The position numbers and the translations under genes are program-made. A DNA stretch of 64,000 nucleotides from NCBI GenBank assembly GCA_024345305.1, contig BRON01000018.1, forward strand, positions 1 through 64,000, given 5' to 3'. The DNA is from Mrakia gelida (Eukaryota > Basidiomycota > Tremellomycetes > Cystofilobasidiales > Mrakiaceae). Below, one piece after another: positions 511-29,252 of the stretch. The notes under the pieces are model-generated. The model did not search any database and was not told the origin of the DNA. It saw nothing but the letters and a program-made list of their open reading frames with translations. Numbering within the stretch: position 1 is the first letter of the stretch; every line of letters starts with the position of its first letter.

Positions 511-750
511 GTCGTACCCAACACTCTTCCAATGCGTCCTTTCCTTCCCTTCTCCAGCCCAACACCCCAGCGCTGTCCCTTGTCTCCCCGACTCATAGAC
601 GGTTTCAGCTAGTCGTTTTCACTTTCCAAGACTGTATTCATTGCTGGAAAGGAGATCAGTGGCGACTTGAGCAGGTCAGGGTGCTTCGTCAGAAGGAAGG
701 ACGTGACTGAAACAAAGAGTCATGAAACGATCCCTTTCATCTGGTATAGA

Positions 751-1978
751 TCACCTCGAGTGATTCAAAGTTGAAACCGAATTTGAATTCCCTTTCGATC
801 GCATATACCCATGACTATAGTGGTGGTTTCGTTCGTGTTCTCCTAGCCGGTGAAGAGCATTTCCACCCTTTCGCATCTTCTCGCGAGCACCCCCAGTTCG
901 GGCCCCAAGCAGCTGGAGTGGCATCAAACATATTGAGAGAACCCTCAAAGGCACTGGAGATGATCTGCGTTGGTTTCGACCAGCTGAGAGAAGATATGAG
1001 TGAGTCGAACTGGCACAAGAGGGGAGAGGACGCAACATGAACAAGGGATCACGAAACGACTTCTTCCATCTCGTATCCCTCGAGTGATTCATAGTTGAAA
1101 CCGAATTTAAATTTTCTTTCGATCACATATGCCCGCGAGTATACAGGTGCGCCCGTTCATGTTCTAGCAGCTGTCAAAGAGCGCGTCCACCATCTTACAT
1201 CCATTTGCGAGCACTCCCAACTCCTCAACAAAAGCAGCTAGAGCGACACCGAACATATTGACAGAACCGTCAAGACTACTAGAGATGATTTGGACTGGTA
1301 TCAACCGGCTCACAGAAGATTTGAGCGAGTCGGATTGGGCTGGGAGGGGAGAGGACGCGACTGGAATGAGAAGTCCTAAGTTGATCCCTTCCATCTGGTA
1401 TAGATCACCTCGAGTGATTCATAGTTGAAACCGAATTTGAATTCCCTTTTGATCGCGTATGCCCGGGAGTATATAGGTGCGCCCGTTCATGTTCTAGTAG
1501 CCGTTGAAGAGCGCGTCCACCATCTCGCACCCACTTACGAACACTTCTAACTTCGGACCCAGAGCAGCTGGAGCGGCATCGAATAAATTGGGAGAACCGT
1601 CAAGACTACTAGAGATGATCCGAATTGGTTTCGATCAGCTCAGAGAAGATTTGAGCAAGTCGAACTTGGCTGGAAGAAGGGAGGACGCGACTGGAAGGAG
1701 AAGTCCTAGATCGATCGCTTCCATCTGATGTAGATCACCTCGGGTCATAGATGGATCAAACAGGCTTTTGATTCCCTTTTGATCGCGTATGCCCGCGAGT
1801 ATATAGGTGCGCCCGTTCATGTTCTAGTAGCCGTCAAAGAGCGCGTCCACCATCTCACACCCACTCGCAAGCACTCCCAACTCCTCAAAGAAAGCAGCTA
1901 GAGCGACACTGAACATACCCAGAGAGTCAGCGAAGCAATACGTGATCATAGGTAGGTCATCTAGCAGTGCCACGGAAG
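751..1978. repeat. Subtelomeric ~330 bp tandem satellite, about 3.7 copies
   Basis: The phrase CGAGTGATTCA followed by AGTTGAAACCGAATTT recurs at about 757, 1081 and 1411, with a degenerate start at 1741, giving periods of 324-330 bp. The last copy stops at 1978, where TLH unit 1 begins. Copies differ by many substitutions, so the array is not fresh. A plus-strand frame with peptides such as EPSRLLEMI and GEDAT stays open through the copies. It may be a remnant exon, but no start, stop or splice pattern proves a gene. Confidence 0.8.
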
Positions 1979-2651
1979 AACTGACGAACGTCGAAGGGAG
2001 GCAAGGTCGAGATGGAGGGAAGGGGAGGAGAGGTGAGCTCAACGCAAGCCGACTCGACGACCGAGAGAGGCCTTCCAACACTCCTACAGTATCCCTCTAC
2101 TTCTCCACCTATGAGCCCACTATATATAAGCCGTATGAATTCGCCAGAAGGGAGGAAAGGGAGCAAGAACTCGTCTCGACAGCTTCGACAAAGGAAAGGA
2201 AGGAGAAAGGTCGAGCTGCCAGCGCATGGAGTGGGGAGGTCGAGGGAGGGAGAGGTGGAGCAAGAGGGGTAGTGGGAGTGTTTCGCGATGGAAGAGGAGG
2301 TATACTAGAGTGGTAGGAAAGAAAGAACGAGAGGATAGAGTTGGTACGAGAGTCTCAGCAGCATCGGATGCATGGGAGGAAGGAGAGTCAAGCTCAACAA
2401 GACTGCATGAGCGAGGAGCCTCAACCGTATACATCCCTCGAAATCTGAGACCTCCCACCTAGGCACCCTAGCTGCCCTACTATACCCCCGAAGTCCCATT
2501 GCGATCCGAGCAAGAGGTGAGGAGAACGGAAGGAGAGAAGATGGAGGGAAGGAAGGGGAGGAGGTGGAGGTGGAGCTCACATTGATCGAGCTCATTTTCT
2601 CCTGCATCCAGCCCTGGCGAAAGATAAAAAGTGGATAGGGTTGGTCCTATA
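1979..2651. other. Left end of TLH unit 1, no clear gene
   Basis: This purine-rich stretch is repeated in unit 2 at 11390-12062. It lies downstream of the small TLH-leader gene and may hold its 3' UTR or further exons. Minus-strand frames are open in places but have no recognisable domain. A TATATATAAG box at 2121-2130 (also at 11532) could serve a rightward transcript, but I see no gene for it. Confidence 0.45.
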
Positions 2652-2941
2652 CTACCATAGACTCATAATGGAGAAGGAGGGGCAAGGGGGAAGCGCATGT
2701 ATAGAGCGAGGGGCAAGGGAAGATGGGGGTTGAGCTTGAACGAACGAGAGGGCCCTTCCATCGACAGGTTCGCTGCCGCTGCGCAACGACTCTAGCAGTA
2801 ACTCGAAATCTGAAAACAGATTAGCCAGGAGGCCGGGTATAGAGAACACGTTCCCTCTTCGAGCGAGCAAATTTTCTTACCACGAGGCTCAGACTCGCAT
2901 AGGAGAAAGGAGGAGGAGCTGGGAGGTGAGCTTGAGCTCAT
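2652..2941 (-). CDS. Small protein sharing the TLH leader and N-terminus (unit 1)
   Basis: The sequence around 2750-3030 is a second copy of the TLH promoter, 5' UTR, exon 1, intron 1 and start of exon 2. Exon 1 runs 2941 to 2881 (M-S-S-S-S-P-P then CESEPR). Intron 1 has a GTAAGA donor, a CTGGCTAATC-like branch region and a TTTTCAG acceptor. Exon 2 runs 2809 to 2652 and ends at TAG. The predicted product is about 71 residues. The first ~40 match TLH (DFELLLESLRSGSEPVDG); the rest is a proline-rich tail ending in SIMSLW. No known domain. It lies directly behind the TLH stop, so its promoter abuts the TLH 3' end. It could be a decoy peptide, a regulated readout of the TLH promoter, or a by-product of duplication. 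A longer spliced form is possible. Confidence 0.45.
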
Positions 2942-3103
2942 ACCTTTCAACCTCGAGACGTCGGCAAATCTTCACTCTAGAGCTAAGCCCTCTTTACGGG
3001 ACATACTAGAGCTATGTACCAACGACTCCAACTTCAGACAAGAGACATCAAAGAGAACCGGAGAAGAAACGAAAGCGGAACAGAAAGAGGAGGACACGAG
3101 TTA

Positions 3104-6100
3104 CTACGTAGGGCGAGAGACAGTCTTGTAGAACCAGAGGAGGAGAAGAGCAGCGTTGGTGAAAGGAAGTGTAGGGGAGAGCAAACCTAGCCAGAACGAG
3201 AACTCCACGTCCTTCTCCTTCGTGATCTTCCACTTGTAATATTCCCTCGTCCCCAGCAGTATCCCTTCTCCGTCAGACACCCACCCCCAGTCTGATCCAA
3301 TCCTCCCCTCCTCGATAGCCCTCTCCCTCCAACTCCGATCCCGGAACAGCTGCATGCAAAGAGGAACAACCATCTTCGCAGCTCTGAACGGACACCCTCC
3401 TCCCATCCCACCCTCCGCCGCCTCCTCGTGCAGCGAGATAGGGAAGAGGCATCCGAAACAGCAGTTGGAGTAGGTAAAGCGTTGAGCGGTAAGGACTGCG
3501 CATGTCTCGAGACTCCTCCAGTTGCAGCCAGTACAGTACGAGCACCTGCGAGAGAAGAGAAGAAAGCGACGTCAGAACGCGTCGCGGTCAAAAAGGAGAG
3601 GCAGACAGAATCGAAAACGTACTCTTTCTTCTTGCTGGGGCATCCGTACTTGTGGAGTGAGGTGGCGTTGGGAGAGAGTTGAGTGGTTGGGTGAAGGAGG
3701 ATGCACGACGAGCAGAGGGAGTCGAGGGTTCGGAGGAGATGGGCAAGTTCGTCGTGGAGGATGTTTGCTTGAGTATGGAGCTGACGGGATTGGAGGTAGG
3801 CTTCGGGGATCTCGGAGGAGTGAGGGATGGTAGGGAAGAGAGAGCTGATGAGGGGAGGAGAGATGGCTGAGGGGAGGAGGTTGGTGGTTCGGTGGGAGGG
3901 GAGGGAGGGAGATTGAGGAGGGGCAACGCGACGACGACGACATTCTGTACAGAGCCCACAGTCTCCCGACGAGAAATCGTTGAGCTGCTCCTCCAGTGCT
4001 TTGGCGATGCAGCTGTTTGGAGAGCGGAAGCGAGGGTCGAACCCGTTTGGGTGGTCGACGAAAAGCAGCGACTTCTTCTTTTGGAGGTCCCAGACGACGG
4101 TCTCCCAGTCTCGACCTCGACCTCCTCCCTGAACGCGCTCGGAGACTGTCCATCCTTTTGGGTGAGGAAGGAAGATGACGAGGTTGCATTGCTGGAAGAG
4201 GAAGGAAGAGAGTTCGGTTGTTGTTCTCGTCCTGACCCGACGCGACGCAAGGGGGGTTGTGTTTGACTCACCGGACAGTCCAGAGCTTGAATCCCCGCTG
4301 TTGTGCAGAACAGGTAGTCGATCCTTCCGGCTTCCCAATCCCTGCTCGTTCCATCCATCTTCCTTGTCTCCTCCACACCCGTCACCGCGTAGTAGACCTC
4401 CGTCCTCACCTCGACACCCTTCCTCTCCGCCTCCTCCACCAGCCTTCCTCGTAGCGCGTCCAGCTCCTTCTTGGTGAATCCAAAGATGATGACTGGAGCT
4501 CTAGGAGCAGAGAGGTGACCGTTCCCGAAAGTATCCATCATCGTCTTGAAGACGTCGTCGCTGTAGTCCAGCTTCACAACGTGGAACGTGACTCCAGGAC
4601 GACGAAGAGGGAAGTTGAGCTCGGTGAGGGTTGAGTGAAGGAGTGTTCCGGCGTGTCTCCGTGCTCCCTCAGTCCAGCTGCCGGAGAGAAGGAGGAAGGG
4701 AGCTCGCGCGAGTCGAGCGAGGGAGACGTAGCCCATCGACGGCCTCCAATCCGACTGAGTCGCCCAGGTGTGAGCCTCATCCCCGACGAACTGGAGGACC
4801 TTCCCTATGGTGCCGAGGGAAGCGAGGTCCTCTCGAAGCTGCTTGTTGCCTAGCTGCTCGATCGAGATGAGGAGGACACCTCGGAGGCTGACGAGAGGGG
4901 TTTCGGGAGGGAAGGGGTGGGTGTGGACGTCGAGACTGCTGTTCCGACATCGAGCGTGAAGCGTAGCGAGGATGGAGCGGAAGGGTGTTATGAAGACGAC
5001 GAGACGACCAGTAGGGTGACTGCGGTCGAGGAGAGCTCGAAGGAGGGAGAGGAAGGTCTTGCCCGACCCAACGGGGCTGCTGAGAAGGTAATCGGTTCCT
5101 CCGCGGATGATCTTGGCAGCAGCTTCGAGCTGGTTCTCGTAGAGCTCCGCTGATGGGTTGCCGGTCCACTCCCGAAGAAGGCTGGTGATGACATCCGCTT
5201 GGGAGTAGGGAGGAGGAACGGGGAGAGGGGAGGGTTCAGGAGGAATGCGAGGAGCCGGAGGAGGAGGAGGAGGAGGGGGACTGGATCCGTCGAAGTCGTC
5301 CATGTCGTCGTCGAAGTCGACACCGTCCGTGAGAGCTTGGAGATCGAGAGGAGTCCGGCTTCTTGAGGATACCTCCACCGCACTTGATGAAAGAATCGAA
5401 CTCCTCTCCTCCTCCAAGACTGGGTCTCTCGCGCTGTCTCCTCCTCCTGACGCGTCGTCTCGACTTAGCTCCATCGGCTCGGATCCTTCGTCGTCGTACC
5501 CTGAGACTGGAGGAGGGGAGGGTGGTGCTGGTGTGGGACGTTTGAAGAGAGGTTGGGAGGAAGAGAGAGAAGAGGAGGAGGGACGCTTGGAGGAGAGCTG
5601 AAGAGAAGGAGAGGAAGAGAGACGCGTCAGTCAGGCGAGGGACGTCGCCAGAAGAGAGAACGGAGGAAGGACTCACCGACGGATGAGAGCTACGCCCAAG
5701 AAACAGATCCAGCCTGTCGGGCAAGCGGTCGATCTTGAGAACCTGCGTAGCGTAGCGGAGGAGGGGGAAGAGGAGGGTTGGTCAGAACGAGGTGTCGCGA
5801 GAGGATCGAGAACGAACATGGAGGCAAAGACTCACAGGATCCACTCCCAACGCGAGTTGATACAGGCTCACAACCCTCATCGCATTCGTCGCGTCTCCAA
5901 AAGCAGCCAAGTCCCGAATCCCACCACTGGAGTCGGTGTTTCCGTAAGCGGCCTCGTCCGTCTTGAGCGAGTGGCCTCGTTGGCTCGACTGAGTCTCCAG
6001 AGCGACGAGGAGTCCGTTGGCGTCTGATCCGAGGAGAGGGAGGATGATCCGACTGATGAAGACTTCGGCGTGTCGAACCGTTTGGAGCCCGACTCCCGAC

Positions 6101-9100
6101 GACGAGCCTGACAAGACGAAGGCGAGCTTGAGGTGGGATCTGAGGTCGGCGGCGACGATCTGCTTCCCGACACCGTTCGTCCAAAGGAACGTCCTGAAGG
6201 TGGTCTGAACGTCGAGGTTGTTGTCCAGAGGGCTGAGAGAGTGGAGGAGGGAGAGAAGGTAGAGAGCGAAGGGTTGTACGACTCCGAAGAGCTGGATGAC
6301 GAGAGGCACGAGGGTCGGCGACACGAAGCGATGGATGGTCTTCGTTCCTGTCTTGTTGACCTCCGTACGAACGGCGAGTCGGTTGGAGGTGATGAAGAGA
6401 GAGGAGCCGTGGTCGACCGTTCGGGTGAGCTGCTGAGTAACGAGTTCCGAAGCTCGACCTCCAGGGGAGGAGAGGTGGATGGCGACGAGGAGGTTGAGCT
6501 TCGCGGCGGCTAGGGAGTGAAGGAAGGCTCGGGCGTGAGGAAGGTTGAGCTGGGGTTTGAGAGGATCCGAGGGGTTTGAGATCCAGAGCTTGGAGTTGGA
6601 GAGAGAGAGGGAGAGGAGGAGAGCCTGTTGGTTCCGAGGTATCCCGAGCTTGATGCAGTTTGATGGATCCGTGAAGATCGATCCTCCAACCTCTCCCGCA
6701 ACTCCTCCGACCGTCACTCCTTCCATCGTTCGGCCAACTGCTGAGAGGTCTGCCGAGAAGGTGAGGGTCTTGATCAAGGAAGCAGCTGATGTGATGGCTC
6801 CCTTGGCTGCGTCGGCAATAGCGGTGAGGGAGATGAAGCGGTTGTAGGAGAGGAGAGGGAGGAGGTGGCCTTCGACTGGGTCGTGGAGGGGTTGGATGGA
6901 GACGACGGGTCCAGCAGCGGTGATGGCGTGGGAGATGGGATAGCGAGTAGCTCGAAGGACGACGAAGGGTGTGACTTGAGCTCCGTTGGGGTGAGCTGTG
7001 ACGAGTTCGAAGAGCGGCGAGTCGAGACTGAGAAAGAAGAAAGAGAGAGAGGTGAGCGACGCGTTTCGAAACCGCAAAGCGATCAAGACAACCGACTTAC
7101 CCTCTCGACACTGGCACTGCTCCAACCTCAGCTTCATCCAACTCCCTAACCTCTCCCCATCCAATCTCGTCCAGCACTAGGCGGTAGACGACGAGTCGAA
7201 CGAAGAACTCGCAGGACGCGAGCTGAGGTCCGAACGATCCGATCTCCCGAAAGCCTCCTCCGGCGGCGAGGGAAAGGCAGATTAGGAACTGATCTAGGAC
7301 CATCTGGCCCCGAGGAGGAGTGGATGAGTATCGAGGGGAGTAGATCGCAAGGAGGAACTGGAGAAGGGCGTCCTGAACCTCCTTCGACTCCTCGACTCCT
7401 CCTCTTCCTTCTCCTCCGAAGACCCCGTTCGGCTGGGTGAGGACGTCCCTCTGGAGGATCTGACGGAGGGTGTTGGCTGCGAGTACCATCCGCTCGGTGG
7501 TGTGCAAGGAGGGAAGGTCGATGGAGGTGGAGAAGGAGGAGGAGGAAGGAGGAGGGGAGATGATTGGAGGAGGTGCGAGCTCGCCCTGAGGGATGGGGAT
7601 GGGGTTTCGGTAGACCGTTGGCGTGACCCTGAGGGCGAAGAGGATGAGCGAGCTTGCGTCCCTGCTGTATCGTTTGAGGGTCGAATCCGCAAGCCGCGGC
7701 TTGAAGATCCTCGTCGGTCCCTTCCCTCCTCGCTCTTCCTCGACCATGTCCTCCGAGATCTGCACCGACCCATCCCCCATCCCGATCTTCCTCGCCACAG
7801 CGAACTCGCTCGGGTTCGTCCCGTACTTCCGAACCCCTAAGGCGAGATCCTGAACGTGGACCCAGACGTTTCGCAGAGGGTCGCGGTCTTCGATTCGAGT
7901 CTTGTCCGAGGATCGGTAGTTGTGGGCGGGGGAGATGGCTGAGCGAAGGATGGCGAGAGGGTAGGGTCGGATGAAGGAGCCGTAGCCGAGAGGGTTCTGG
8001 TAGACTGGTTGATGGTAGAGGGAATTGTCGAGCTTGTCGCTGGGGATGGGAAGGGAGGAGAGTATCTCGTTCTGCTGCTTGAGAAGGAAGGCTGCTGATG
8101 CCGAGAGGGGATCCGATCGTGGGACCTTGAGAGGGGGAGGAGGAACGAAGTTGGTGGAGTCGTGGGAGGGAGGAGGAACGGCGAAGGCGGGGAGGTGAGC
8201 GTCGGGGAAGAGCCGTTGGAAGTAGGCGGGAGTGGGAGCGAGGTTCGTTCCTCCGTGCCTCTTGTGACGGTGGCTTCGGAGGGAGTCGCCATCCTTGTAG
8301 ACAGCTCCACAGCTCCCACACCCTATTCCTGACCTCACAGCGAGTCCCTCGACCATAGGGAAGGTCGAGCCTGAACTCGTCGAGAGGAGGAGGCCGATCG
8401 CGTCTTGGTTGTTGGCGAGGGAAGCGTAGTCGGAGGTGTCGAGAGAGGAAGAGAGGTTGAGGAGGTGGGTGGCATCTCGGGTGAGAGTCTTCCGCTGGGA
8501 GGAGGAGAGGGACGGAGTGTGGAGTGAAAGATGGTGTCCGATGCGAGAGGGACGAACACCTCCTCCGTGGGAGTCCTCGTGGGTTGAGATGACGAGGCCG
8601 ATGCGAGTGTTGACAGCGAGAGAGGCGATATTGAGAGCGGGAGTGGCTGAAAGGAGGAAGAGGAGAAAGGTCAGGGTCGGGAAGGAAGGGGGAGAGCAAG
8701 GAGGAGGGAGGAGAAGAAGAACGAACTGGCGAGATGAGGTAGCTTCCAGAACGCGTCTCGAACGAAAGATCCTCCGATGGTGAGTCCCCTGAGGCTGTTG
8801 TTACCAGCCCTGTCGTCTCTAAGAACCGATGCTGTTGAGCCTGATGGAGGGAAGAAGGGTTTGAGGATCAGCACGAGTCCATACTCTCGAGCGAGAGAGC
8901 AAACAAGAGTGACCTAGAGAGACTCACCATCGTCCGAAGAGACCTCGCCCTCGACTCCATCCATCCCACATGCAGCACCGACTCCTCCATCTTCCGAAAG
9001 GTTCCCATCCTCCCCACCAACACCCTCACTCTCAACAACAACCTCGCGTTCCTTCCCCTTCCTCGTCCCACTCGAGCTCGACCCACTCGCACTCCCTCCA

Positions 9101-10921
9101 ACTCCCTCGCCACCACCTCGCTCGGTCTCTCCCTCTCCCTCCCCCTCGTCCATCCCAAAACCAAACCCTTCCCCATCCCCTAGGTGAGCGTTCTCCTCCT
9201 CCTCCTGTTGATCCTGTGTTGGCGGAGGGGGAGCGTCGGGTTGGGGAGAGGGAGAGGGAGAGTGAACGAGAGGAGAAGGGAAGAGCGGGTGGAGAGGTTC
9301 GGTGAGGGTGCAGATCTTCCAGTGCTTATGAAACGTGTTTGGGGTACGGGAAAAGTGAGGTTCCGAGTGAGGTCGAGGGCAGGAGAACGATCCGTTGGTT
9401 CCACGCGGCACTGAGAGGGATGGGGGAGGGAGAACGAGGGGAAGGGAGGAACGGGATGAGTGTTGGGCTTGAACGGAACCTACACGGAGAAGATGTGTGC
9501 AAGCGCACCTTTGAGACCTCCAGCAAGACGAATTTCAGCTTGATGAACATCCTTCACATGCTCGGTGAGTTTAGCAAGGGTGGAGAAGGGTGAGAGGGCA
9601 TGGCAGATCGCTCTTGAGCATGGGAAGCTCATCTGCTCGAGCACGAACGAGAGAAGGTCAATCGAAAGTCAGAACAGAACCAAGCGGAGGGTGGATGGTA
9701 TGAGAAGATTGAGGTATGCGAGGGCAACTTACGGTACTGAAGAAAGAACCTGAGAGTGCAAGGGGAAGGAGGGAGAGCGAGCGAGGTAGAGGGAAGAACG
9801 ATGGTCAGCTCGAGCTCGCAACTCCTCCTTCCTTCTCCTTCCTTCTGCAAAGGCAGGTGACACCTCATCCCACCTCCCCTACCTCTAACTGAAAGCGAAA
9901 GACTCACTTGAGTCCCACGAGAAAGTCTCTCGAGAGCTCGTTCAGCGAGGGTTCCAAAGGGGAAGGAGGTTTGGCTGAGGTCGCTTTCGAAGGAAGCTGA
10001 AGAGGGTTGTAGAATTGGATCGGATCCGTTGGATGGCTAGGAGTAGAGGAGGAGTGGGGGAGAAGTTCCTGGTGGGAGGGAAGGGGAGGAAAGAGGGTCA
10101 GCATTGAGCTCGCTCGTGGAGGAGGGAAGGGAAGGAGGAGGGGAAGACCGAGTCATGAGGGAGGGAGCCTGCTCCTCCTCCTTCCAACGAGAGACCTTCC
10201 CAGCATACATCCACGTTCTCAGTGGGTTCTTTGCACCCCAGAGGATACACTCCCAACATAGAAGCTCAAGAGAAAGGACTTCCCTTCCTTTGCGAGAGGA
10301 GGAGGGGTTGAGGAAAGGGAAGCGATGAGGAAGCGATAAGGCGAGGGAGCTCACCAAGGCTGCCGTTCAAGCACAGCTCCAGTGGGCCCTTGGGAGGGAT
10401 GCTACTCCCTCGTAGGAGCTGACAAGTTGTTGGTAGAGGGAGTGGGAAATGGGAAGGAAGTGGTCAAGGGAAGAGGTCGATGTGGTTGGGGGAGAGAGCA
10501 GCTCCGCAACTTCTCGTCGAAGACACGCGGTTGACTCGGACCTCGTCCCCTTCGGTCCACGGCTTTGTAGATCCATCGATGTATGAAACCACCCTCCCAT
10601 CGCCCAGGTCAATCCTATAGTACCAAAGAGGCAGGAGGCCCGAGAAGAGTCCAGCTGCTGTTGTAGGAGGTAAGCGAGGGAGGAGGGGGAGGGGGGAGGA
10701 GATGGGGGTTGAGCTTGAACGAACGAGAGGGCAAGTTCCATCGACAGGTTCGCTGGCGCTGCGCAACGACTCTAGCAGTAACTCGAAATCTGAAAACAGA
10801 TTAGTCAGGAGGCCGGGTATAGAGAACACGTTCCCGCTTCGAGCGAGCAAATTTTCCTACCACGAGGCTCAGACTCGCATAGGAGAAAGGAGGAGGAGCT
10901 GGGAGGTGAGCTTGAGCTCAT
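3104..10921 (-). CDS. Telomere-linked RecQ-like helicase with zinc fingers (TLH), multi-exon, unit 1
   Basis: A spliced gene read right to left. I start it at the ATG at 10921: exon 1 (10921-10861) joins through a GTAGGA...CTGACTAATC...TTTTCAG intron to exon 2 at 10789. Two C2H2-like fingers follow: CSRAIC with HVKDVH near 9528-9650, and CPRPH with HKHWKIC near 9300-9370. A third, CGSC with HRHKRH, lies near 8253-8320. Next come the conserved TLH middle region (exons 8356-7097 and 7164-5782, with LTRTVDHGSSLF) and the helicase: Walker A PVGSGKT near 5060-5080, DEAH at 4770-4781, motif V TTAGIQALDCP, then an intron, then QGGGRGRDW, a RecQ-type motif VI. A cysteine-rich C-terminus ends at 3104. 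Families of this type sit next to telomeres in many fungi and probably act in telomere recombination. Exon joins between 10600 and 9400 are not resolved. Confidence 0.75.
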
Positions 10922-11277
10922 TTCTTTCGAGCTCGAGACGTCGGCAAATCTTCACTCTAGAGCTAAGCCCTTTATACCGGACATACTAGAGCTACTAATC
11001 AACGGCCCTAGCTCTTCGCATAGCAGGAACTCGGCCTTGAATATACAGTGCAGCTAAAGAGAGGATGGAGCTCCTCCGAAAAGAACTCGCGGAAGTCAGC
11101 TCGAGCTCACCCTCTCCTTCGTTTTGAGGTACCTCTCGGGAGAATCGCTGTCGACGATGCAGATTTTGTTCTAGAGAGCTGTGCTTCTGATACATTGTGC
11201 TTCATGGGTAGATCTCGCTGGTCGTGTTTCCCGTTTGCGATTCGGTGGAAGGAGGAAGGAGAACGAAGCGACGCAAA
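10922..11277 (-). promoter_or_regulatory. TLH upstream region, unit 1
   Basis: About 350 bp between the TLH start codon and the terminal palindrome complex. It is conserved in units 2 and 3. The part next to the gene (CTCTAGAGCTAAGCC and the CGAGACGTCGGCAAATC block) is also copied in front of the small gene in both units, which marks it as the likely core promoter and leader. I see no clear TATA box. Confidence 0.5.
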
Positions 11278-11389
11278 GTCCGGGTAGTCCAAAAAGGGCT
11301 GCTGGAACGGTCGGACTACCCGGATCCGGGTAGTCGACTACACGGAATCGACCGTTCCTGGAGGCAGGAACGGGGCGCATACCCGTTAG
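11278..11389. repeat. TLH unit 1 right terminus: fourfold 7 bp palindromic module plus hairpin
   Basis: Order along plus: GTCCG, GGTAGTC (11283-11289), a 24 nt linker ending GGAACGGTCG, GACTACC (11314-11320), CGGATCCG, GGTAGTC (11329-11335), GACTACA (11336-11342, one mismatch), CGGAATCGACCGTTCC, then a hairpin CGTTCCTG-GAGG-CAGGAACG (11353-11372), then GGGGCGCATACCCGTTAG. The 7 bp word occurs four times in alternating orientation. GGAACGGTCG also pairs with CGACCGTTCC across the module. Confidence 0.9.
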
Positions 11390-12062
11390 AACTGACGAAC
11401 GTCGAAGGGAGGCAAGGTCGAGATGGAGGGAAGGGGAGGAGAGGTGAGCTCAACGCAAGCCGACTCGACGACCGAGAGAGGCCTTCCAACACTCCTACAG
11501 TATCCCTCTACTTCTCCACCTATGGGCCCACTATATATAAGCCGTATGAATTCGCCAGAAGGGAGGAAAGGGAGCAAGAACTCGTCTCGACAGCTTCGAC
11601 AAAGGAAAGGAAGGAGAAAGGTCGAGCTGCCAGCGCATCAAATCGCGAGGTCGAGGGAGGAAGAGGAGAGCCAAGGCGTGCAATGGGAGCGGTTTGCGAT
11701 GGAGGAGGAAGTATACTAGAGTGGTAGGAAAGAGAGAATGAGAAGATAGAGTGAGTAGGAGAGTCTCAGCAGCATGCAATGCATGGGAGGAAGGAGAGTC
11801 AAGCTCAACAAGGCTCCATGAGCGAGGAGCCTCAACCGTATACATCCCTCGAAATCTGAGACCACCAGCATAGGCTCCATAGCCGCCCTACTATATCCTC
11901 CAAGTCTCATCGCGATCCGAGCAAGAGGAGGGGAGAACGAAACGAGAGAAGATGGAGGGAAGGGAGGGAAGGAGGTGGAGGTGGAGCTCACCTCGATCGA
12001 GCTCATTTTCTCCTGCATCCAGCCTTGACGAGAGATAAAAACCAGCTGGGGTTGGTCCCATA
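11390..12062. other. Left end of TLH unit 2, no clear gene
   Basis: Counterpart of 1979-2651. It is diverged around 11640-11760 and otherwise very similar. Short minus-strand frames are open, but no domain is recognisable. Confidence 0.4.
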
Positions 12063-12352
12063 CTACCAAGGAGTCATAATGGAGAAGGAGGGGCAAGGGG
12101 GAAGCGCATGTATAGAGCGAGGGGCAAGGGAAGATGGGGGTTGAGCTTGAACGAACGAGAGGGCCCTTCCATCGACAGGTTCGCTGCCGCTGCGCAACGA
12201 TTCTAGCAGTAACTCGAAATCTGAAAACAGATTAGTCAGGAGGCCGGGTATAGAGAACACGTTCCTCCTTCGAGCGAGCAAATTTTCTTACCACGAGGCT
12301 CAGACTCGCATAGGAGAAAGGAGGAGGAGCTCAGAGGTGAGCTTGAGCTCAT
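12063..12352 (-). CDS. Small protein sharing the TLH leader and N-terminus (unit 2)
   Basis: Second copy of the small gene. Exon 1 is 12352 to 12292, with a GTAAGA donor and TTTTCAG acceptor; exon 2 is 12220 to 12063. The product again starts MSSSS and contains DFELLLESLRSGSEPVDG, and ends SIMTPW instead of SIMSLW. The frame and both splice sites survive in both units although the flanks have diverged, a mild sign that the product or transcript matters. No known domain. Confidence 0.42.
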
Positions 12353-12537
12353 ACCTTTCAACCTCGAGACGTCGGCAAATCTTCACTCTAGAGCTAAGCC
12401 ACCTTTACGGGACATACTAGAGCTATGTACCAACGACTCCAACTTCAGACAAGAGACATCAAAGAGAACCGGAGAAGAAACGAAAGCGGAGCGCAACAAG
12501 ATTCCAAACCAGTACAGAAAGAGGAGGACACGAGTTA

Positions 12538-15500
12538 CTACGTAGGGAGAGAGACAGTCTTGTAGAACCAGAGGAGGAGAAGAGCAGCGTTGGTGAAAGG
12601 AAGTGTAGGGGAGAGCAAACCTAGCCAGAACGAGAACTCCACGTCCTTCTCCTTCGTGATCTTCCACTTGTGATATTCCCTCGTCCCCAGCAGTATCCCT
12701 TCTCCGTCAGACACCCACCCCCAGTCTGATCCAATCCTCCCCTCTTCGATAGCCCTCTTCCTCCAACTCCGATCCCGGAACAGCTGCATGCAAAGAGGAA
12801 CAACCATCTTTGCAGCTCTGAACGGACACCCTCCTCCCATCCCACCCTCCGCCGCCTCCTCGTGCAGCGAGATAGGGAAGAGGCATCCGAAACAGCAGTT
12901 GGAGTAGGTAGAGCGTTGAGCGGTAAGGACTGCGCATGTCTCGAGACTCCTCCAGTTGCAGCCAGTACAGTACGAGCACCTGCGAGAGAAGAGAAGAAAG
13001 CGACGTCAGAACGCGTCGCGGTCAAGAAGGAGAGGCAAACAGAATCGAAAACGTACTCTTTCTTCTTGCTGGGGCATCCGTACTTGTGGAGTGAGGTAGC
13101 GTTGGGAGAGAGTTGAGTGGTTGGGTGAAGGAGGATGCACGACGAGCAGAGGGAGTCGAGGGTTCGGAGGAGGTGGGCAAGTTCGTTGAGGAGGATGTTT
13201 GCTTGAGTATGGAGCTGACGGGATCGGAGGTAGGCTTCGGGGATCTCGGAGGAGTGAGGAACTGTAGGGAAGAGAGAGCTGATGAGGGGAGGAGAGATGG
13301 CTGAGGGGAGGAGGTTGGTGGTTCGGTGGGAGGGGAGGGAGGGAGATTGAGGAGGGGCAACGCGACGACGACGACATTCCGTACAGAGCCCACAGTCTCC
13401 CGACGAGAAATCGTTGAGCTGCTCCTCCAGTGCTTTGGCAATGCAGCTGTTTGGAGAGCGGAAGCGAGGGTCGAACCCGTTTGGGTGGTCGACGAAAAAG
13501 AAAAGCGGCGACTTCTTCCGTTGGAAGTCCCAGACGACGGTCTCCCAGTCTCGACCTCGACCTCCTCCCTGAACGCGCTCGGAGACTGTCCATCCTTTTG
13601 GGTGAGGAAGGAAGATGACGAGGTTGTATTGCTGGAAGAGGAAGGAAGAGAGTTCGGTTGTTGTTCTCGTCCTGACCCGACGCGACGCAAGGGGGGTTGT
13701 GTTTGACTCACCGGACAGTCCAGAGCTTGAATCCCCGCTGTTGTGCAGAACAGATAGTCGATCCTTCCGGCTTCCCAATCCCTGCTCGTTCCATCCATCT
13801 TCCTTGTCTCCTCCACACCCGTCACCGCGTAGTAGACCTCCGTCCTCACCTCGACACCCTTCCTCTCCGCCTCCTCAACCAGCCTTCCTCGTAGCGCGTC
13901 CAGCTCCTTCTTGGTGAATCCAAAGATGATGACTGGAGCTCTAGGAGCAGAGAGGTGACCGTTCCCGAAAGTATCCATCATCGTCTTGAAGACGTCGTCG
14001 CTGTAGTCCAGCTTCACAACGTGGAACGTGACTCCAGGACGACGAAGAGGGAAGTTGAGCTCGGTGAGGGTTGAGTGAAGGAGTGTTCCGGCGTGTCTCC
14101 GTGCTCCCTCAGTCCAGCTGCCGGAGAGAAGGAGGAAGGGAGCTCGCGCGAGTCGAGCGAGGGAGACGTAGCCCATCGACGGCCTCCAATCCGACTGAGT
14201 CGCCCAGGTGTGAGCCTCATCCCCGACGAACTGGAGGACCTTCCCTATGGTGCCGAGGGAAGCGAGGTCCTCTCGAAGCTGCTTGTTGCCTAGCTGCTCG
14301 ATCGAGATGAGGAGGACACCTCGGAGGCTGACGAGAGGGGTTTCGGGAGGGAAGGGGTGGGTGTGGACGTCGAGACTGCTGTTCCGACATCGAGCGTGAA
14401 GCGTAGCGAGGATGGAGCGGAAGGGTGTTATGAAGACGACGAGACGACCAGTAGGGTGACTGCGGTCAAGGAGAGCTTGAAGGAGGGAGAGGAAGGTCTT
14501 GCCCGACCCAACGGGGCTGCTGAGAAGGTAATCGGTTCCTCCGCGGATGATCTTGGCAGCAGCTTCGAGCTGGTTCTCGTAGAGCTCCGCTGATGGGTTG
14601 CCGGTCCACTCCCGAAGAAGGCTGGTGATGACGTCCGCTTGGGAGTAGGGAGGAGGAACGAGGAGAGGGGAGGGTTCGGGAGGAACGCGAGGAGGCGGAG
14701 GAGGAGGAGGAGGGGGACTGGATCCGTCGAAGTCGTCCATGTCGTCGTCGAAGTCGACACCGTCCGTGAGAGCTTGGAGATCGAGAGGAGTCCGGCTTCT
14801 TGAGGATACTTCCACCGCACTTGATGAAAGAATCGAACTCCTCTCCTCCTCCAAGACTGGGTCTCTCGCGCTGTCTCCTCCTCCTGACGCGTCGTCTCGA
14901 CTTAGCTCCATCGGCTCGGATCCTTCGTCGTCGTACCCTGAGACTGGAGGAGGGGAGGGTGGTGCTGGTGTGGGACGTTTGAAGAGAGGTTGGGAGGAAG
15001 AGAGAGAAGAGGAGGAGGGACGCTTGGAGGAGAGCTGAAGAGAAGGAGAGGAAGAGAGACGCGTCAGTCAGGCGAGGGACGTCGCCAGAAGAGAGAACGG
15101 AGGAAGGACTCACCGACGGATGAGAGCTACGCCCAAGAAACAGATCCAGCCTGTCGGGCAAGCGATCGATCTTGAGAACCTGCGTAGCGGAGGGGGAAGA
15201 GGAGGGTTGGTCAGAACGAGGGGTCGAGTGAAGATCGAGAACGAGCCTGGAGGCAAAGACTCACAGGATCCACTCCCAACGCGAGTTGATACAGGCTCAC
15301 AACCCTCATCGCATTCGTTGCATCTCCAAAAGCAGCCAAGTCCCGAATCCCACCACTCGAATCCGTGTTTCCGTAAGCCGCCTCGTCCGTCTTGAGCGAG
15401 TGGCCTCGTTGGCTCGACTGAGTCTCCAGAGCGACGAGGAGTCCGTTGGCGTCTGATCCGAGGAGAGGGAGGATGATCCGACTGATGAAGACTTCGGCGT

Positions 15501-18500
15501 GTCGAACCGTTTGGAGCCCGACTCCCGACGAGGAGCCTGACAAGACGAAGGCGAGCTTGAGGTGGGATCGGAGGTCGGCGGCGACGATCTGCTTCCCGAC
15601 ACCGTCTGTCCAAAGGAACGTCCTGAAGGTGGTCTGAACGGCGAGGTTGTTGTCCAGAGGGCTGAGAGAGTGGAGGAGGGAGAGAAGGTAGAGAGCGAAG
15701 GGTTGTACGACTCCGAAGAGCTGGATGACGAGAGGCACGAGGGTCGGAGACACGAAGCGATGGATGGTCTTCGTTCCTGTCTTGTTGACCTCCGTACGAA
15801 TGGCGAGTCGGTTGGAGGTGATGAAGAGAGAGGAACCGTGGTCGACCGTTCGGGTGAGCTGCTGAGTAACGAGTTCCGAAGCCCGACCTCCAGGGGAGGA
15901 GAGGTGGATGGCGACGAGGACGTTGAGCTTCGCGGCGGCGAGGGAGTGAAGGAAGGCTCGGGCGTGAGGAAGGTTGAGCTGGGGTTTGAGAGGATCCGAG
16001 GGGTTTGAGATCCAGAGCTTGGAGTTGGAGAGAGAGAGGGAGAGGAGGAGAGCCTGTTGGTTCCGAGGTATCCCGAGCTTGATGCAGTTTGATGGATCCG
16101 TGAAGATCGATCCCCCAACCTCTCCCGCAACTCCTCCGACCGTCACTCCTTTCATCGTTCGGCCAACTGCTGAGAGGTCCGCCGAGAAGGTGAGGGTCTT
16201 GATCGAGGAAGTAGCTGATGCGATGGCTCCCTTGGCTGCGTCGGCGATAGCGGTGAGGGAGATGAAGCGGTTGTAGGAGAGGAGAGGGAGGAGGTGGCCT
16301 TCGACTGGGTCGTGGAGGGGTTGGATGGAGACGACGGGTCCAGCAGCGGTGATGGCGTGGGAGATGGGATAGCGAGTAGCTCGAAGGACGACGAAGGGTG
16401 TGACTTGAGCTCCGTTGGGGTGAGCTGTGACGAGTTCGAAGAGCGGCGAGTTGAGACTGAGAAAGAAGAAAGAGAGAGGTAAGCGACGCGTTTCGAACCC
16501 CAAAGCGATCAAGACAACCGACTTACCCTCTCGACACTGGCACTGCTCCAGCCTCAGCTTCATCCAACTCCCTAACCTCTCCCCATCCAATCTCGTCCAG
16601 CACTAGGCGGTAGACGACGAGTCGAACGAAGAACTCGCAGGACGCGAGCTGAGGTCCGAACGATCCGATCTCCCGAAAGCCTCCTCCAGCAGCAAGGGAA
16701 AGGCAGATTAGGAACTGATCTAGGACCATCTGGCCCCGAGGAGGAGTGGATGAGTATCGAGGGGAGTAGATCGCAAGGAGGAACTGGAGGAGGGCGTCCT
16801 GAACCTCCTTTGACTCCTCGACTCCTCCTCTCCCTTCTCCTCCGACGACCCCGTTCGGCTGGGTGAGGACGTCCCTCTGGAGGACTTGACGGAGGGTGTT
16901 GGCTGCGAGTACCATCCGCTCGGTGGTGTGGAAGGAGGGAAGGTCGATGGAGGTGGTGAAGGAGGAGGAGGAGGGAGGAGGGGAGATGATTGGAGAAGGT
17001 GCGAGCTCGCCCTGAGGGATGGGGATGGGGTTCCGGTAGACCGTTGGCGTGACCCTGAGGGCGAAGAGGATGAGCGAGCTCGAGTCCCTGCTGTATCGTT
17101 TGAGGGTCGAATCCGCGAGCCGCGGCTTGAAGATCCTCGTCTGTCCCTTCCCTCCTCGCTCTTCCTCGACCATGTCCTCCGAGATCTGCACCGACCCGTC
17201 CCCCATCCCGATCTTCCTCGCCACAGCAAACTCGCTCGGACTCGTCCCGTACTTCCAAATCCCTAAGGCGAGATCCTGAACGTGGACCCAGACGTTTCGC
17301 AGAGGGTCGCGGTCTTCAATTCGAGTCTTGTCCGAGGATCAGTAGTTGTGGGCGGGGGAGATGGCTGAGCGAAGGATGGCGAGAGGGTAGGGTTGGATGA
17401 AGGAGCCGTAGCCGAGAGGGTTCTGGTAGACTGGTTGGTGGTAGAGGGAATTGTCGAGCTTGTCGCTGGGGGTGGGAAGGGAGGAGAGTATCTTGTCCTG
17501 CTGCTTGAGAAGGAAGGCTGCTGATGCCGAGAGGGGATCCGATCGTGGGACCTTGGGAGGGGGAGGAGGAACAAAGTTGGTGGAGTCGTGGGAGGGAGGA
17601 GGAACGGCGAAGGCGGGGGAGTGAGCGTCGGGGAAGAGCCGTTGGAAGTAGGCGGGAGTGGGAGCGAGGTTCGTTCCTCCGTGCCTCTTGTGACGGTGGC
17701 TTCGGAGGGAGTCGCCATTCTTGTAGACAGCTCCACAGCTCCCACACCCTATTCCTGACCTCACAGCGAGTCCCTCGACCATAGGGAAGGTCGAGCCTGA
17801 ACTCGTCGAGAGGAGGAGGCCGATCGCGTCTTGGTTGTTGGCGAGGGAAGCGTAGTCGGAGGTGTCGAGAGAGGAAGAGAGGTTGAGGAGGTGGGTGGCA
17901 TCTCGGGTGAGAGTCTTCCGCTGGGAGGAGGAGAGGGACGGAGTGTAGAGTGAAAGATGGTGTCCGATGCGAGAGGGACGAACACCTCCTCCGTGGGAGT
18001 CCTCGTGGGTTGAGATGACGAGGCCGATGCGAGTGTTAACAGCAAGAGAGGCGATATTGAGAGCAGGAGTGGCTGAGAGGAGGAAGAGGAGAAAGGTCAG
18101 CGTCAGGAAGGAAGGGGGAGAGCAAGGAGGAGGGAGGAGAAGAAGAACGAACTGGCGAGATGAGGTAGCTTCCAGAACGCGTCTCGAACGAAAGATCCTC
18201 CGATCGTGAGTCCCCTGAGGCTGTTGTTCCCAGCCCCGTCGTCTCTACGAACCGATGCTGTTGAGCCTGATGGAGGGAAGAAGGGTTTGAGGATCAGCAC
18301 GAGTCCATACTCTCGAGCGAGAGAGCAAACGAGAGTGACGGAACAGGACGCGAGAGACTCACCATCATCCGAAGAGACCTCGCCCTCAACTCCATCCATC
18401 CCGCATGCAGCACCAACCCCTCCACCTTCTGGAAGGTTCCCATCCTCCCCACCACCAACCTCTCTCCCATCAGCAACCTTGCGGTCCTTCCCCTTCCTCG

Positions 18501-20404
18501 TCCCACTCAAGCTCAACCCACTCGCACTCCCTCCAACTCCCTGGCCACCACCTCGCTCGGTCTCTTCCTCTCCCTCCCCCTTGTCCATCCCAGAACCAAA
18601 CCCTTCCCCATCCCCTAGGTGAGCAGGGTGAGCAGGCACCTCCTCCTCCAGCGGATCCTGTGTTGGCGGAGGGGGAGTGTCGGGTTGGGGAGAGGGAGAT
18701 GGAGAGTGGACGAGAGGAGAAGGGAAGAGCGGATGCAGAGGTTCAGCCACCGTGCAGGTCTTCCAGTGCTCGTGGAGAGCAGAGGGAGTTGGAGAGAGGT
18801 GAGGTTGATCATGAGGGCGAGGGCAGGGGAAGGATCCGTTGCTGCCTCGAGGAACTGAGAGGAGAGAGGGGAAGGAACGAGAGGGAGGGAGCAATGGGTT
18901 GAGTGTCGAGCTTGAACGAAGCAAACACAAGCACGGTGAAGATAGATGCAAGCGCACCTTTGAGACCTCCAGAAAGACGAACTTGAACCTGGTGAACATC
19001 CTTCACATGCTGAGTGAGTTTGGCGAGGGTGGAGAAGGGTGAGAGGTCCCGGCAGAGCGCTCTCGAGCAAGAGAAGCTCATCTGCTCGAGCACGAAGGGG
19101 AGAAGGCCAATCGAGAGTCAGAACAGAACCAAGTGGTGGGTGGACGGTATGGGAGGATGGGTGCATGTAAGAGGAACATACAGTATCAAAGAAAGAACCT
19201 GAGAGTGGAAGGGGAAGGAGGAAGAGCGAGCCAGGTGAAGGAAGGAACGATGGTCAGCTCGAGCTCGCAACTCCTCCTTCCTTCTCCTTCGTTCCTCCTT
19301 CCCTCTCCCTTCCCTCCCCTTCCAAAGGCAGATCACACCTCATCCGACCTTTCCGTACCCCCACCTCCATAGCAGAAAGCGAAAGACTCACCCGAATCCT
19401 ACGAGAAGGTCTCTCGAGCGCTCGTTCAGCGAGGGTTCCAAAGGGGAAGGAGGTTTGGCTGAGGTCGCTCTCGAAGGAAGCTCAAGAGGGTTCTGGCAGT
19501 AGATCAGGTCTGTTGGATGGGTAGCAGTAGAGGAGGAGTGATGAAGAAGTTCCTGGTAGAGAGGGAAGGGGAGGAAAGAGGGTCAGCATCGAGTTTGCCC
19601 GTGGAGGAGGGAAAGGAAGGAGGAGGGGAAGACCGAGTCATGAGCGAGGGAGCCTGCTCCTCCTTCCTTCCAACGAGAGACCTTCCCAGCATACATCCAC
19701 GTTCTCAGTGGGTTCTATACACCCCAAAGACTTCTCTCCCAACATAGAAGCTCAAGAGAAAGGACTTCCCTTCCATTGCGAGAGGAGGAGGGGTTGAGGA
19801 AAGGGAAGCGATAAGGGAGCGATAAGGCGAGGGAGCTCACCAAGTCTGCCGTTCAAGCACTGCTCCAGTGGGTCCTTGGGAGGGAGGCTGGTGATCCCTC
19901 GTAGGATCTGACAAGTTGTTGGTAGAGGAAGTGGGAAATGGAAAAAGGTGTCAAGGGAAGAGGTCGATGTGGTTGGGAGAGAGAGCAGCTCCGCGACTTC
20001 TCGTCGAAGACACGGGATGGACTCGGAGCTCGTCCCCCTGGGTCCACGGCTTTGTAGATCCACCGATTTATGAAACCACCCTCCCATCGCCCAGGTCGAT
20101 TCTAGAGTACCAAAGAGGCAGGAGGTCCAGGAAGAGTCCAGCTGCTGTTGTAGGAGGTAAGCGAGGGAGGAAGGAGAGAGGGGAGGAGGTTGATGCTGAG
20201 CTTGAACGAACGAGGTCTTTCCATCGACAGGTTTGCTGCCACTGCGCCAGCGTTCTCGCAGTGAATCGGAATCTGAGAAAAGCCTAGTCAGGAAACTAGG
20301 TATAGAGAGCACGCTCCCTCTTCGAGCGAGCAACTTTTCTTACCACGAGGCTCAGACTCGCATAGGAGAAAGGAAGAGGAGCTGGGAGGTGAGCTTGAGC
20401 TCAT
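12538..20404 (-). pseudogene. TLH helicase gene, unit 2, with premature stop
   Basis: Same architecture as the unit 1 gene. The start ATG is at 20404, fingers CSRALC/HVKDVH near 18960-19090 and CGSC/HRHKRH near 17680-17745, the middle region 17224-15211, and a helicase with PVGSGKT and DEAH (14911-13022). At 17339-17341 the codon that is CGA in units 1 and 3 (N-Y-R-S-S-D) is TGA. Translation would stop after the third finger, before the helicase. The frames on both sides are otherwise open, so the loss is recent. The change is C to T at a CpG. A truncated zinc-finger protein could still be made. Several exon joins are inferred from unit 1. Confidence 0.7.
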
Positions 20405-20763
20405 ACCTTTCAACCTCGAGACGTCGGCAAATCTTCACTCTAGAGCTAAGCCCTCTTTACTGGACATACTAGAGCTATGTACCAACGACTCCAGCTCTTT
20501 ACAATCCGCGGTTTCGGCCTTGAGTATACAGAGAAGCTGAAAGAGAGAGGATGGAGCTCCTCCGAAAAGAACTCGCGGAAGTCAGCTCGAGCTCGCCCTC
20601 TTCATCGTTTTGAGGTACCTCTCGGGAGAGTCGCTGTCGACAATGCAGATTTTATCGTATGAATCTGTACTTCTGATACATTGTGCTTCATAGGTAGATC
20701 TCTCTGGTCGTTTTTCCCGTTTGCGATTTGGTGGAGGGAGGAGGGAGAACGAAGCGACGCAAA
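20405..20763 (-). promoter_or_regulatory. TLH upstream region, unit 2
   Basis: Counterpart of 10922-11277. The block with CGAGACGTCGGCAAATC and CTCTAGAGCTAAGCC lies next to the start codon. It is conserved with unit 3 and with the copied leaders at 2942 and 12353. Confidence 0.45.
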
Positions 20764-20873
20764 GTCCGTCAAGTCCGTCAAGGCTGCTGGAACGGTCGGA
20801 CTTGACGGATCCGTCAAGTCGACTTGACGGAATCGACCGTTCCTGCTAGCAGGAACGGCACGCATATCGTTAG
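20764..20873. repeat. TLH unit 2 right terminus: fourfold 7 bp palindromic module plus hairpin
   Basis: GTCCG, TCAAGTC (20769-20775), a 23 nt linker ending GGAACGGTCG, GACTTGA (20799-20805), CGGATCCG, TCAAGTC (20814-20820), GACTTGA (20821-20827), CGGAATCGACCGTTCC, hairpin CGTTCCTG-CTAG-CAGGAACG, and the GTTAG end at 20869-20873. All four copies of the word match exactly. The flanking frame matches unit 1, but the word is different. The linker also starts with an extra partial copy, CGTCAAG. Confidence 0.9.
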
Positions 20874-23359: not shown

Positions 23360-23718
23360 TGTCAGGGAATCAGGTTTCAGCTCCTTCTTGTTTCACTCTC
23401 CCTTACTCTTTCCCTTTCTTCCCCCTACTTCCCTTTCACCGCTACTAGTCCTTTGTTCTCAGCTACGCGTTCTGCCTTTGTCCCTTTGTTCATAACTCTT
23501 CCCCTGTTATTGTTTCAGCCTTCAAAGTCTTTTGTTCTTTCTTCCCTTTGATCGCTTCGCCTCCCTTAAATATGTTCGCCTCGCTTTTCACTTTCTAACC
23601 TCTATCTTGAATCACCTTTGGATCATACCTCGTCCTCGTTCCTCGATAAGCACCTGACTTCTCTTCGTCGCGTCGCTCTCGTTCCCTCGCCATCCCCGCT
23701 CCTCGCTCGATCCTCACA
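23360..23718 (+). repeat. 5' LTR of the gypsy element
   Basis: Starts TGTCAGGGAATC and ends TCCTCACA. It differs from the 3' LTR at three sites, TTG here for TCG there once and the reverse twice. It directly abuts the open copia frame. Confidence 0.95.
23566..23612 (+). promoter_or_regulatory. LTR core promoter and likely transcript start
   Basis: TTAAATATG at 23566-23574 is a TATA-like box. About 30 nt downstream lies ATCTTGAAT (23604-23612), the exact complement of the putative primer-binding site. In self-priming elements the 5' end of the mRNA anneals to that site, so transcription probably starts close to 23604. This is inference from pairing and spacing. Confidence 0.55.
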
Positions 23719-23720
23719 TA

Positions 23721-23729
23721 ATTCAAGAT
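23721..23729 (+). other. Putative primer-binding site, self-priming type
   Basis: ATTCAAGAT begins two bases after the 5' LTR, where a primer-binding site belongs. It is the reverse complement of ATCTTGAAT in the LTR. I see no match to a usual tRNA 3' end here. Confidence 0.6.
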
Positions 23730-23776
23730 CAACAAACCGGTCGCCTGCTTATCACCAATCCCCCAACAACAACAAC

Positions 23777-29215: not shown

Positions 29216-29240
29216 ACGCTTGAGAGACCTTCGCGTCTTA

Positions 29241-29252
29241 GATGGGGGATTA
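29241..29252 (+). other. Polypurine tract of the gypsy element
   Basis: GATGGGGGATTA directly precedes the 3' LTR and is the only purine run at the expected place for plus-strand priming. Confidence 0.6.

Follow-up and report, generated by a model that had tools for sequence, protein, structure and literature searches.

Hairpins with words that change in step at the terminus of an apparently end-capping telomere-linked helicase unit in Mrakia gelida

Layout of the window and its three units

The window, the whole stretch of 64,000 nucleotides analysed here, forms the left end of contig C18 in a 34.9-Mb genome of 25 contigs. It opens at position 1 with CCCTAA repeats on the + strand, a terminal telomere tract (1-118) that is followed by a tract very poor in G (119-600; 2.7% G on the + strand by base count). 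Counterparts of the latter are present at the C3L and C1R ends, again with 1-3% G on the CCCTAA strand, and the point at which telomere and G-poor tract meet differs among ends. Self-BLAST revealed subtelomeric repeats of around 330 bp each (698-1917) and three units on the - strand. The body of unit 1 (1979-11389) carries a helicase gene that is read towards the telomere and ends in GTTAG. Unit 2 (11390-20873) is truncated on its telomere side and contains a subterminal direct repeat of around 300 bp, with a left copy at 12119-12425 and a right copy at 20197-20496 (both +, self-BLAST). Unit 3 (29613-33828) is likewise truncated and abuts an LTR retroelement. Between units 2 and 3 lie a copia-like pol ORF (20874-23369, - strand; label by eye), interrupted at its C-terminal end where the GTTAG of unit 2 is joined, and an LTR element (23360-29612), gypsy-type by eye, with 360-bp LTRs that are 99.2% alike. 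The element has no target duplication, its left flank being the copia-like pol and its right flank unit 3, and it looks like the product of recombination between elements. Further inward, self-comparison showed many diverged direct and inverted repeats of around 66-84% identity (36700-57300). Taken together, the introns, LTR elements and telomere repeat suggest a fungal host.

The gene of unit 2, spliced by eye at GT..AG sites, contains an in-frame TGA, absent from unit 3, downstream of which it encodes 1359 residues. Outward from the terminus, its exons (all - strand) specify an OrsD/zinc-finger-like part, a middle part and a DEAD helicase. More explicitly, the OrsD/C2H2-like exon (17339-18244) matched PF12013 with E 4e-4 and 21.2 bits, below the curated cut-off of 26.6, and the exon segment after the TGA lies at 16527-17335. 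Then follow the middle exon (15265-16456), a small exon with splice sites assigned by eye (15114-15179) and the last exon (13024-15034), which carries the DEAD-box helicase domain (PF00270, E 1.7e-6, above cut-off). A Pfam scan of eight unit ORFs recovered the helicase and OrsD/zinc finger only and no reverse transcriptase; the LTR-type ORFs of the window belong to separate elements and are not unit ORFs.

Within the middle exon we recognised by eye the motifs GGRASEL, NKTGTK, TVRH and GHS...Y, whose order (R, K, R-H, GHS...Y) we take to be that of tyrosine recombinases. The exon gave no Phage_integrase or other recombinase match in Pfam, PF00589 gave 0 matches in the genome at E 10, the AlphaFold models were of low confidence (pLDDT 34 and 38) and Foldseek returned no recombinase hit for the model with pLDDT 38, a result of little weight at such confidence. 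None of these formal tests supported the recombinase-like motifs. The exon is constrained: pairwise comparison of 10 copies gave a total of 809 synonymous against 352 nonsynonymous codons with a single change. Constraint was weaker in the preceding exon (830 against 523; 14 copies) and left no sign in the helicase exon (6 against 22; the 3 of 12 copies without gaps). At least 40 matches to the middle exon occur in the genome, mostly near contig ends, and among the matches listed 30 of the 31 near-full-length ones are without a stop. A diverged internal relative (59-73% identity) is found at C3:2253205-2253788, around 88 kb from the contig end. Protein relatives were absent at E 0.001 or 0.01 from a large protein set that may contain few fungal proteins, and a sequence search of the PDB gave one weak match, to HamB (E 0.0095).

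Each unit ends in the same complex, which was delimited by sequence and folding. In unit 1 it consists of a word X1 (TCCG+GGTAGTC; 11279-11289, +), its inverse X2' (11314-11324, -), a third word X3 (11325-11335, +) and a fourth, inverse one X4' (GACTACA, with one mismatch; 11336-11346, -). X1 and X2' are the arms of hairpin 1, and X3 and X4' those of hairpin 2, which the optimal fold contains on the + strand but not on the - strand. Hairpin 3 (CCGTTCC-8nt-GGAACGG; 11352-11373, +), also evident from alignment, and GTTAG (11385-11389, +) complete the terminus. In unit 2 the corresponding features are X1 (TCCG+TCAAGTC; 20765-20775, +), X2' (20799-20809, -), X3 (20810-20820, +), X4' (20821-20831, -), hairpin 3 (20837-20858, +) and GTTAG (20869-20873, +). 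In unit 3 they are X1 (TCCG+TATCCCT; 33720-33730, +), X2' (33754-33764, -), X3 (33765-33775, +; its last letter G is a mismatch), X4' (33776-33786, -), hairpin 3 (33792-33813, +) and GTTAG (33824-33828, +). An earlier, sequence-only reading of this DNA had reported the order word, inverse, word, inverse for GGTAGTC (11283), TCAAGTC (20769) and TATCCCT (33724), with a single mismatch in 2 of the 12 word copies; we found both to be correct, the mismatches being located in the fourth word of unit 1 and the third word of unit 3. The recurrence is real, but the repeated word is 11 bp long (T[C/G]CG+7) and not 7 bp. The frame that was thought invariant did not hold up either: CGACCGTTCC reads CGCCCGTTCC in unit 3, within the window itself, and CGGATCCG is simply the place where two word copies (X2' and X3) meet, reading CGCATGCG where all four copies have TGCG. 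The CG-rich centre therefore changes in step as well.

The stretches after GGAACGG and before GTTAG (11374-11389 and equivalents) vary, and the GCATA between them is constant. The terminal GTTAG (11385-11389) is identical to a five-letter part of the telomere repeat, and the opposite strand begins with 5'-CTAAC. In the excerpted text of PMC6167521, CTAAC is the 5' end of the mammalian C-strand and not the one preferred in Ustilago.

Word families and hairpins across the genome

A genome-wide search with the exact frame GGAACGGTCG-N7-CGGATCCG gave 36 occurrences, and 66 places when up to two mismatches were allowed; a search with an upstream anchor added 8 further termini. Dropped as non-termini were C2:12688 and C2:162493 (other sequence; L037/L038) and C10:901884 (L059) from the frame list, and C1:2134760, C9:172148 and C9:1549440 from the anchor list. 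In this way, 71 termini were listed at 33 contig ends, and with L043, which has three mismatches, the genome holds at least 72. We read 50 of these termini completely. At three of the places read, on C1, C12 and C22 (L001/L031, L023, L055), terminus and flank are identical, which leaves 48 distinct copies, 43 read by pattern and five by eye (L011, L025, L032, L036, L052; L032 is without words 3 and 4). Backward patterns, searched as a control, gave 0 and 0-1 matches in the genome. In collection searches the frame pattern was found at 2 viral and 29 prokaryote loci (raw counts), 4 of these 31 having near-matching flanking 7-mers (up to two mismatches) and one of them a perfect pair.

The first words of the 43 pattern copies are of the types TCCGGGTAGTC (21 copies), TCCGTCAAGTC (10), TGCGTACCCTC (4), TCCGTATCCCT (3), TGCGTATCCCT (3), TGCGGACCCTC (1) and TCCGTGGAGTC (1). 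Among the five copies read by eye three have TGGAGTC, one GGTAGTC and one TCAAGTC, so that the total remains at seven types. The word is the mark of a family rather than of a single unit. Given that seven words serve 48 copies and are common to many units, the suggestion that they act as unit tags was dropped.

To what extent the four words agree depends on the pair. The sequence-only reading had proposed to compare words within and between copies, and on this genome the outcome was favourable for words 1 and 2, which never disagree (43/43 pattern copies and the five read by eye, 48/48), and unfavourable for words 3 and 4, which often do in particular families. X1 equals X3 in 32/43 pattern copies and X4 in 20/43, and X3 equals X4 in 16/43. 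The mismatches are confined to few sites. Most affect the final letter of X3, which occupies the poorly pairing tip of hairpin 2, or X4 at its letters 5 and 7. All four words are letter-identical in just 15/43 copies, mainly because the fourth word of the GGTAGTC family is one or two letters off: in the 21 pattern copies of this family X4 reads TGTAGTC (11) or TGGAGTC (10), the latter being the own word of another family. On a simple reading, X1 to X3 would have been rewritten in this family, with X4 catching up from the tip outward, a polarity that we infer.

In-step change of separated words, as first proposed from the window, was nevertheless upheld across families. In one copy each of the four words is a single letter away from the closest type (TGCGGACCCTC versus TGCGTACCCTC). 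In the TCAAGTC family the spacer contains a tandem fifth copy of the word (full in 6/10, partial in 4/10), which has changed as well, and the same holds for one TGGAGTC copy. The mixed terminus L043 has TATCCCT in X1/X2 and TACCCTC in X3/X4; its stems are internally consistent and differ from each other, which agrees with every stem being a unit by itself. Mean agreement of the words within a copy was 0.63 (43 copies), against 0.17 when words were dealt among copies (2000 shuffles, largest value 0.25; the shuffle ignores relatedness).

Single-stranded DNA of the terminus folds into three successive hairpins, formed by X1:X2' (loop of around 24 nucleotides), X3:X4' (tight loop) and CCGTTCC-8-GGAACGG. 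We folded eight representatives on both strands and compared the three window termini with shuffles as well, giving z-scores of -4.5 to -7.4 on both strands and 0/200 shuffles as good in each of the six cases. On the - strand of window unit 1 the optimal fold does not include hairpin 2, and on that of the TGGAGTC representative X2' pairs with the fifth word copy of the spacer. Pairs were counted in 46 aligned termini, of which 33 are distinct (L011 and L032 were left out). All 363 cells of the 11 pairs of hairpin 1 are paired in the 33 distinct sequences, with two-sided change in 8 pairs and one-sided change in none, and hairpins 2 and 3 are paired for 93.1% and 92.6%, respectively. For the whole structure, 95.2% of the cells are paired in register, against 29-47% when partners were slid by one to three columns. 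None of 500 shuffles reached the observed percentage paired, the number of cells with two-sided change or the covariation score; the number of two-sided pairs itself does not exceed the shuffle control (18 against a mean of 16.7, with 133/500 as high). Based on the shuffles, the slid controls and the folding z-scores, chance agreement was rejected.

An alternative pairing, X2':X3 within X1:X4', scored nearly as well (97.5% and 94.8% paired), which implies that the data show the arms to be kept complementary and not which pairing operates. None of the 22 copies of the GGTAGTC family has a hairpin 2 free of mismatches. The outer arm shows a covariation of its own: the spacer end GTT goes with the loop AACGCGT. 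in 18/18 and GCT/CCA with TG-type loops in 30/30. The loop TGGAGGCA between CCGTTCC and GGAACGG is also found as its reverse complement, TGCCTCCA, and the two forms reside in different word families. Altogether, the hairpins are very probably the object that is being maintained. A ribozyme or known RNA family was dropped as a candidate, since the only Rfam match in 901 bases was weak (E 4.2) and the window contained none at the gathering threshold.

The GTTAG junction and the orientation of units

The right edge of the 48 copies reads GTTAG in 43, ATTAG in three and GTTAA in one, and is absent in L032. Junctions were analysed for 45 copies, L011, L020 and L032 having ends off the search pattern, which required TTAG. 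These 45 junctions have 44 distinct flanks, of which 19/45 match another unit in the same orientation within three bases of the break, 2 at the telomere tract of that unit and 17 scattered over positions 628 to 11,314 of the 11.5-kb unit. At J11, J22 and J42 the unit match begins 5 to 13 bases in, the flank of J44 is an inverted piece of a unit, and about half of the flanks showed little or no match in the sequence compared. These unmatched flanks would fit end addition and internal insertion followed by loss of the distal arm alike. The joint has a clear base preference: the base before the break in the undisturbed target is G in 16/17 cases (p 2e-8), and the next base is a purine at 40/45 junctions (p 4e-8), GTTAG being followed by G in 28, A in 12, C in 4 and T in 1.

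All 64 end-proximal termini with a known end distance point inward. Five further termini, on contigs of unknown length (C9, C15, C16), would agree if they are at right ends, as was assumed, and fall outside this count; two others are far inside contigs, the one on C23 not being directed towards the nearest end. At C1R a second unit lies in front of a complete one, which retains a telomere remnant of its own, and in the window unit 1 ends straight on unit 2, which is without its telomere side. The GTTAG of unit 2 is in turn joined inside the copia-like pol ORF. J08 and J09 have one flank in common, and the break points of J16 and J19 coincide to about a letter; such shared junctions imply additional exchange between ends or the presence of hot spots. 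Short unit forms of 1.43 kb with both edges were observed as well (L031 3294-4726 and 7352-8784; also L035, L046 and L048), apparently derived by recombination between the subterminal direct repeats of around 300 bp.

A unit thus comprises a telomere tract, a G-poor tract, 330-bp repeats, an outward helicase gene, three hairpins and GTTAG. Judged from the junction sequences, the complex is the precise one-way junction of a telomere-bearing unit, an aspect that had escaped the sequence-only reading, and the units resemble caps stacked successively on worn or broken ends. We regard such terminal addition as probable. The unit end would be joined at a site between G and a purine to an eroded or broken chromosome end, its own telomere being brought along. 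Joining would be carried out by the helicase protein of the unit itself, perhaps with a recombinase domain, although the identity of the joining enzyme is the more doubtful part and we put it forward tentatively.

Origin of the in-step words and relation to known systems

How could several separated words change together? In the excerpted report on yeast, template switching between inverted repeats homogenises the arms and inverts the loop or spacer (PMC8604942), and the same process was proposed, in the part of PMC8794818 that deals with it, to rewrite RNA stems in one step. Both footprints are present here: the arms of hairpin 1 are identical within each of the 48 copies across seven word types, and hairpin 3 shows loop inversion between perfect arms. 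As these two footprints are what template switching has been reported to leave, we take this process, combined with selection for pairing, as the best account of the data. Copying between inverted arms, be it by template-switch synthesis or by the snap-back synthesis that had been suggested from the window, is the likely source of the in-step words. The accompanying statement that no described system matches does not hold for the mutational step, which in these excerpts is described in yeast (PMC8604942) and proposed for RNA stems (PMC8794818).

We consider template switching the probable main source of the in-step change. It would copy one inverted arm into its partner and flip loops, so that an entire word moves in a single step. 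The stems themselves would be held by selection, the folded single strand (or RNA) of the unit end being what is recognised. In the excerpted accounts (PMC8604942, PMC8794818) template switching or quasipalindrome correction likewise homogenises arms and inverts loops in one event. Those accounts concern single inverted repeats, whereas here four to five arms at a unit end move together and stem 1 is without mismatch in 48 copies. A tree built on the upstream 300 bp of 47 copies, a recombining sequence (L032 could not be aligned there), requires 12 changes of the words and 7 of the loop class, with no mismatch in hairpin 1. Part of these word changes may represent recombination rather than mutation. 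As only seven distinct words exist, the number of independent change events is small.

Ordinary compensatory evolution, in which pairing is selected base by base and nothing is copied between arms, is the strongest competitor, albeit a rather improbable one. The strong in-register covariation of the stems speaks for it, and the two steps in the fourth word of the GGTAGTC family, TGGAGTC and TGTAGTC, resemble catching up by one letter at a time. Catching up from the tip outward also fits partial template switching, however, and none of the 363 cells of hairpin 1 is one-sided, wobble or broken. Moreover, words differ by up to seven of 11 letters while the flanks of different word families differ by just 7-17% on average, and loop inversion is not predicted at all.

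Alternatively, the words could be iterons, bound by a protein of the element, with sites and specificity changing together and the sites being homogenised by conversion. This we judge improbable. Four inverted copies plus a direct tandem fifth, as found in TCAAGTC copies and in one with TGGAGTC, are more than pairing requires, and the gene contains a C2H2-like motif (below cut-off). On the other hand, L043 mixes two words within one terminus, and units with different words encode almost identical protein, only 1 of 395 residues being different between C3L (GGTAGTC) and unit 2 of the window (TCAAGTC) in a comparison confined to the recombinase-like exon. A still weaker case can be made for old families that fixed their words long ago, the present copies merely inheriting and recombining them with no copying now. 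The limited set of seven word types in 48 copies and the common terminus and flank at C1, C12 and C22 agree with such a history. It explains persistence, however, and not the origin of in-step change, and the one-letter step between TACCCTC and GACCCTC in all four words needs copying or rapid compensation, making it a very improbable alternative. Finally, although palindromes are hard to assemble and the 4/31 prokaryote and viral loci with near-matching 7-mers make a single such palindrome unremarkable, chance or an assembly artefact can practically be dismissed in view of 71 listed termini at 33 contig ends, 48 distinct termini seen in the context of the element, and the near-empty backward-pattern control.

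Template switching on stems under selection concerns the words; for the unit as a whole, the traits of telomere-linked helicases are evident, namely a multicopy DEAD helicase gene (PF00270 above cut-off) next to the telomere. In the excerpted literature such genes have been reported from fungi since at least 1998, and a role in telomere maintenance is discussed without a mechanism (PMC10532341). UTASa/UTASb of Ustilago and TLHcr of Fusarium oxysporum share with the present units a subtelomeric helicase and full and truncated copies at many ends, and have an OrsD-like part for which the present gene offers a candidate (below cut-off). The hairpin terminus, fixed GTTAG junction and word families found here do not feature in the excerpted accounts of these systems (PMC10532341, PMC12857005). 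In the open-licence literature we found no paper that combines a telomere-linked helicase (or RecQ with telomere/subtelomere) with a tyrosine recombinase, none that links a palindrome to terminal transposition at chromosome ends, and nothing on this terminus in titles or the starts of abstracts.

HeT-A/TART, terminons and MoTeR/FoTeR build their arrays outward by end addition. As in the present units, one end of these retroelements faces the centromere, older copies are cut distally and arrays extend outward (PMC12857005, PMC8381367, excerpted). Their one-way terminal orientation is also found here, with 64/64 termini inward and older units distally truncated. Elements of the HeT-A/MoTeR type encode a reverse transcriptase, whereas none was recognised in the eight scanned unit ORFs; furthermore, the present unit, unlike end-added retroelements, brings its own telomere and subtelomere and has a hairpin complex as its proximal end. 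Integron attC sites, REP/TnpA-REP and Helitron hairpins are recognised as folded single strands, with arms that may vary if they remain paired. No homology to these is shown, and structure recognition in the present case is something we infer. Helitrons have TC...CTRR ends and insert between A and T. A Helitron was rejected because this terminal rule does not apply here: the right end is GTTAG and the next base is mostly G or A.

In summary, the covariation is confirmed and well controlled, a mutational route for it is known, and the telomere-linked helicase unit in whose terminus it resides appears to be end-capping. We lean slightly towards the view that all three elements hold jointly, i.e. 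stems under selection, template-switched words and end joining between G and a purine. A more specific proposal is speculative and on balance unlikely: a DNA end-capping transposon free of reverse transcriptase, in which a helicase protein with a diverged tyrosine-recombinase domain would read the folded triple hairpin by its shape rather than its sequence and join GTTAG at G/R, the words drifting by template switching.

With 48 copies and seven words, the terminus represents an unusually clean natural series for multi-letter compensatory stem change, and for stem 1 this series shows no broken intermediate. The precise one-way hairpin terminus makes telomere-linked helicases a testable mobile-element hypothesis, and it raises the questions of which agent attaches GTTAG to an eroded end and whether telomerase is required. 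If true, the capping unit would deliver a ready telomere to uncapped chromosome ends, and template switching, by rewriting both arms at once, would leave the hairpin words free to drift.
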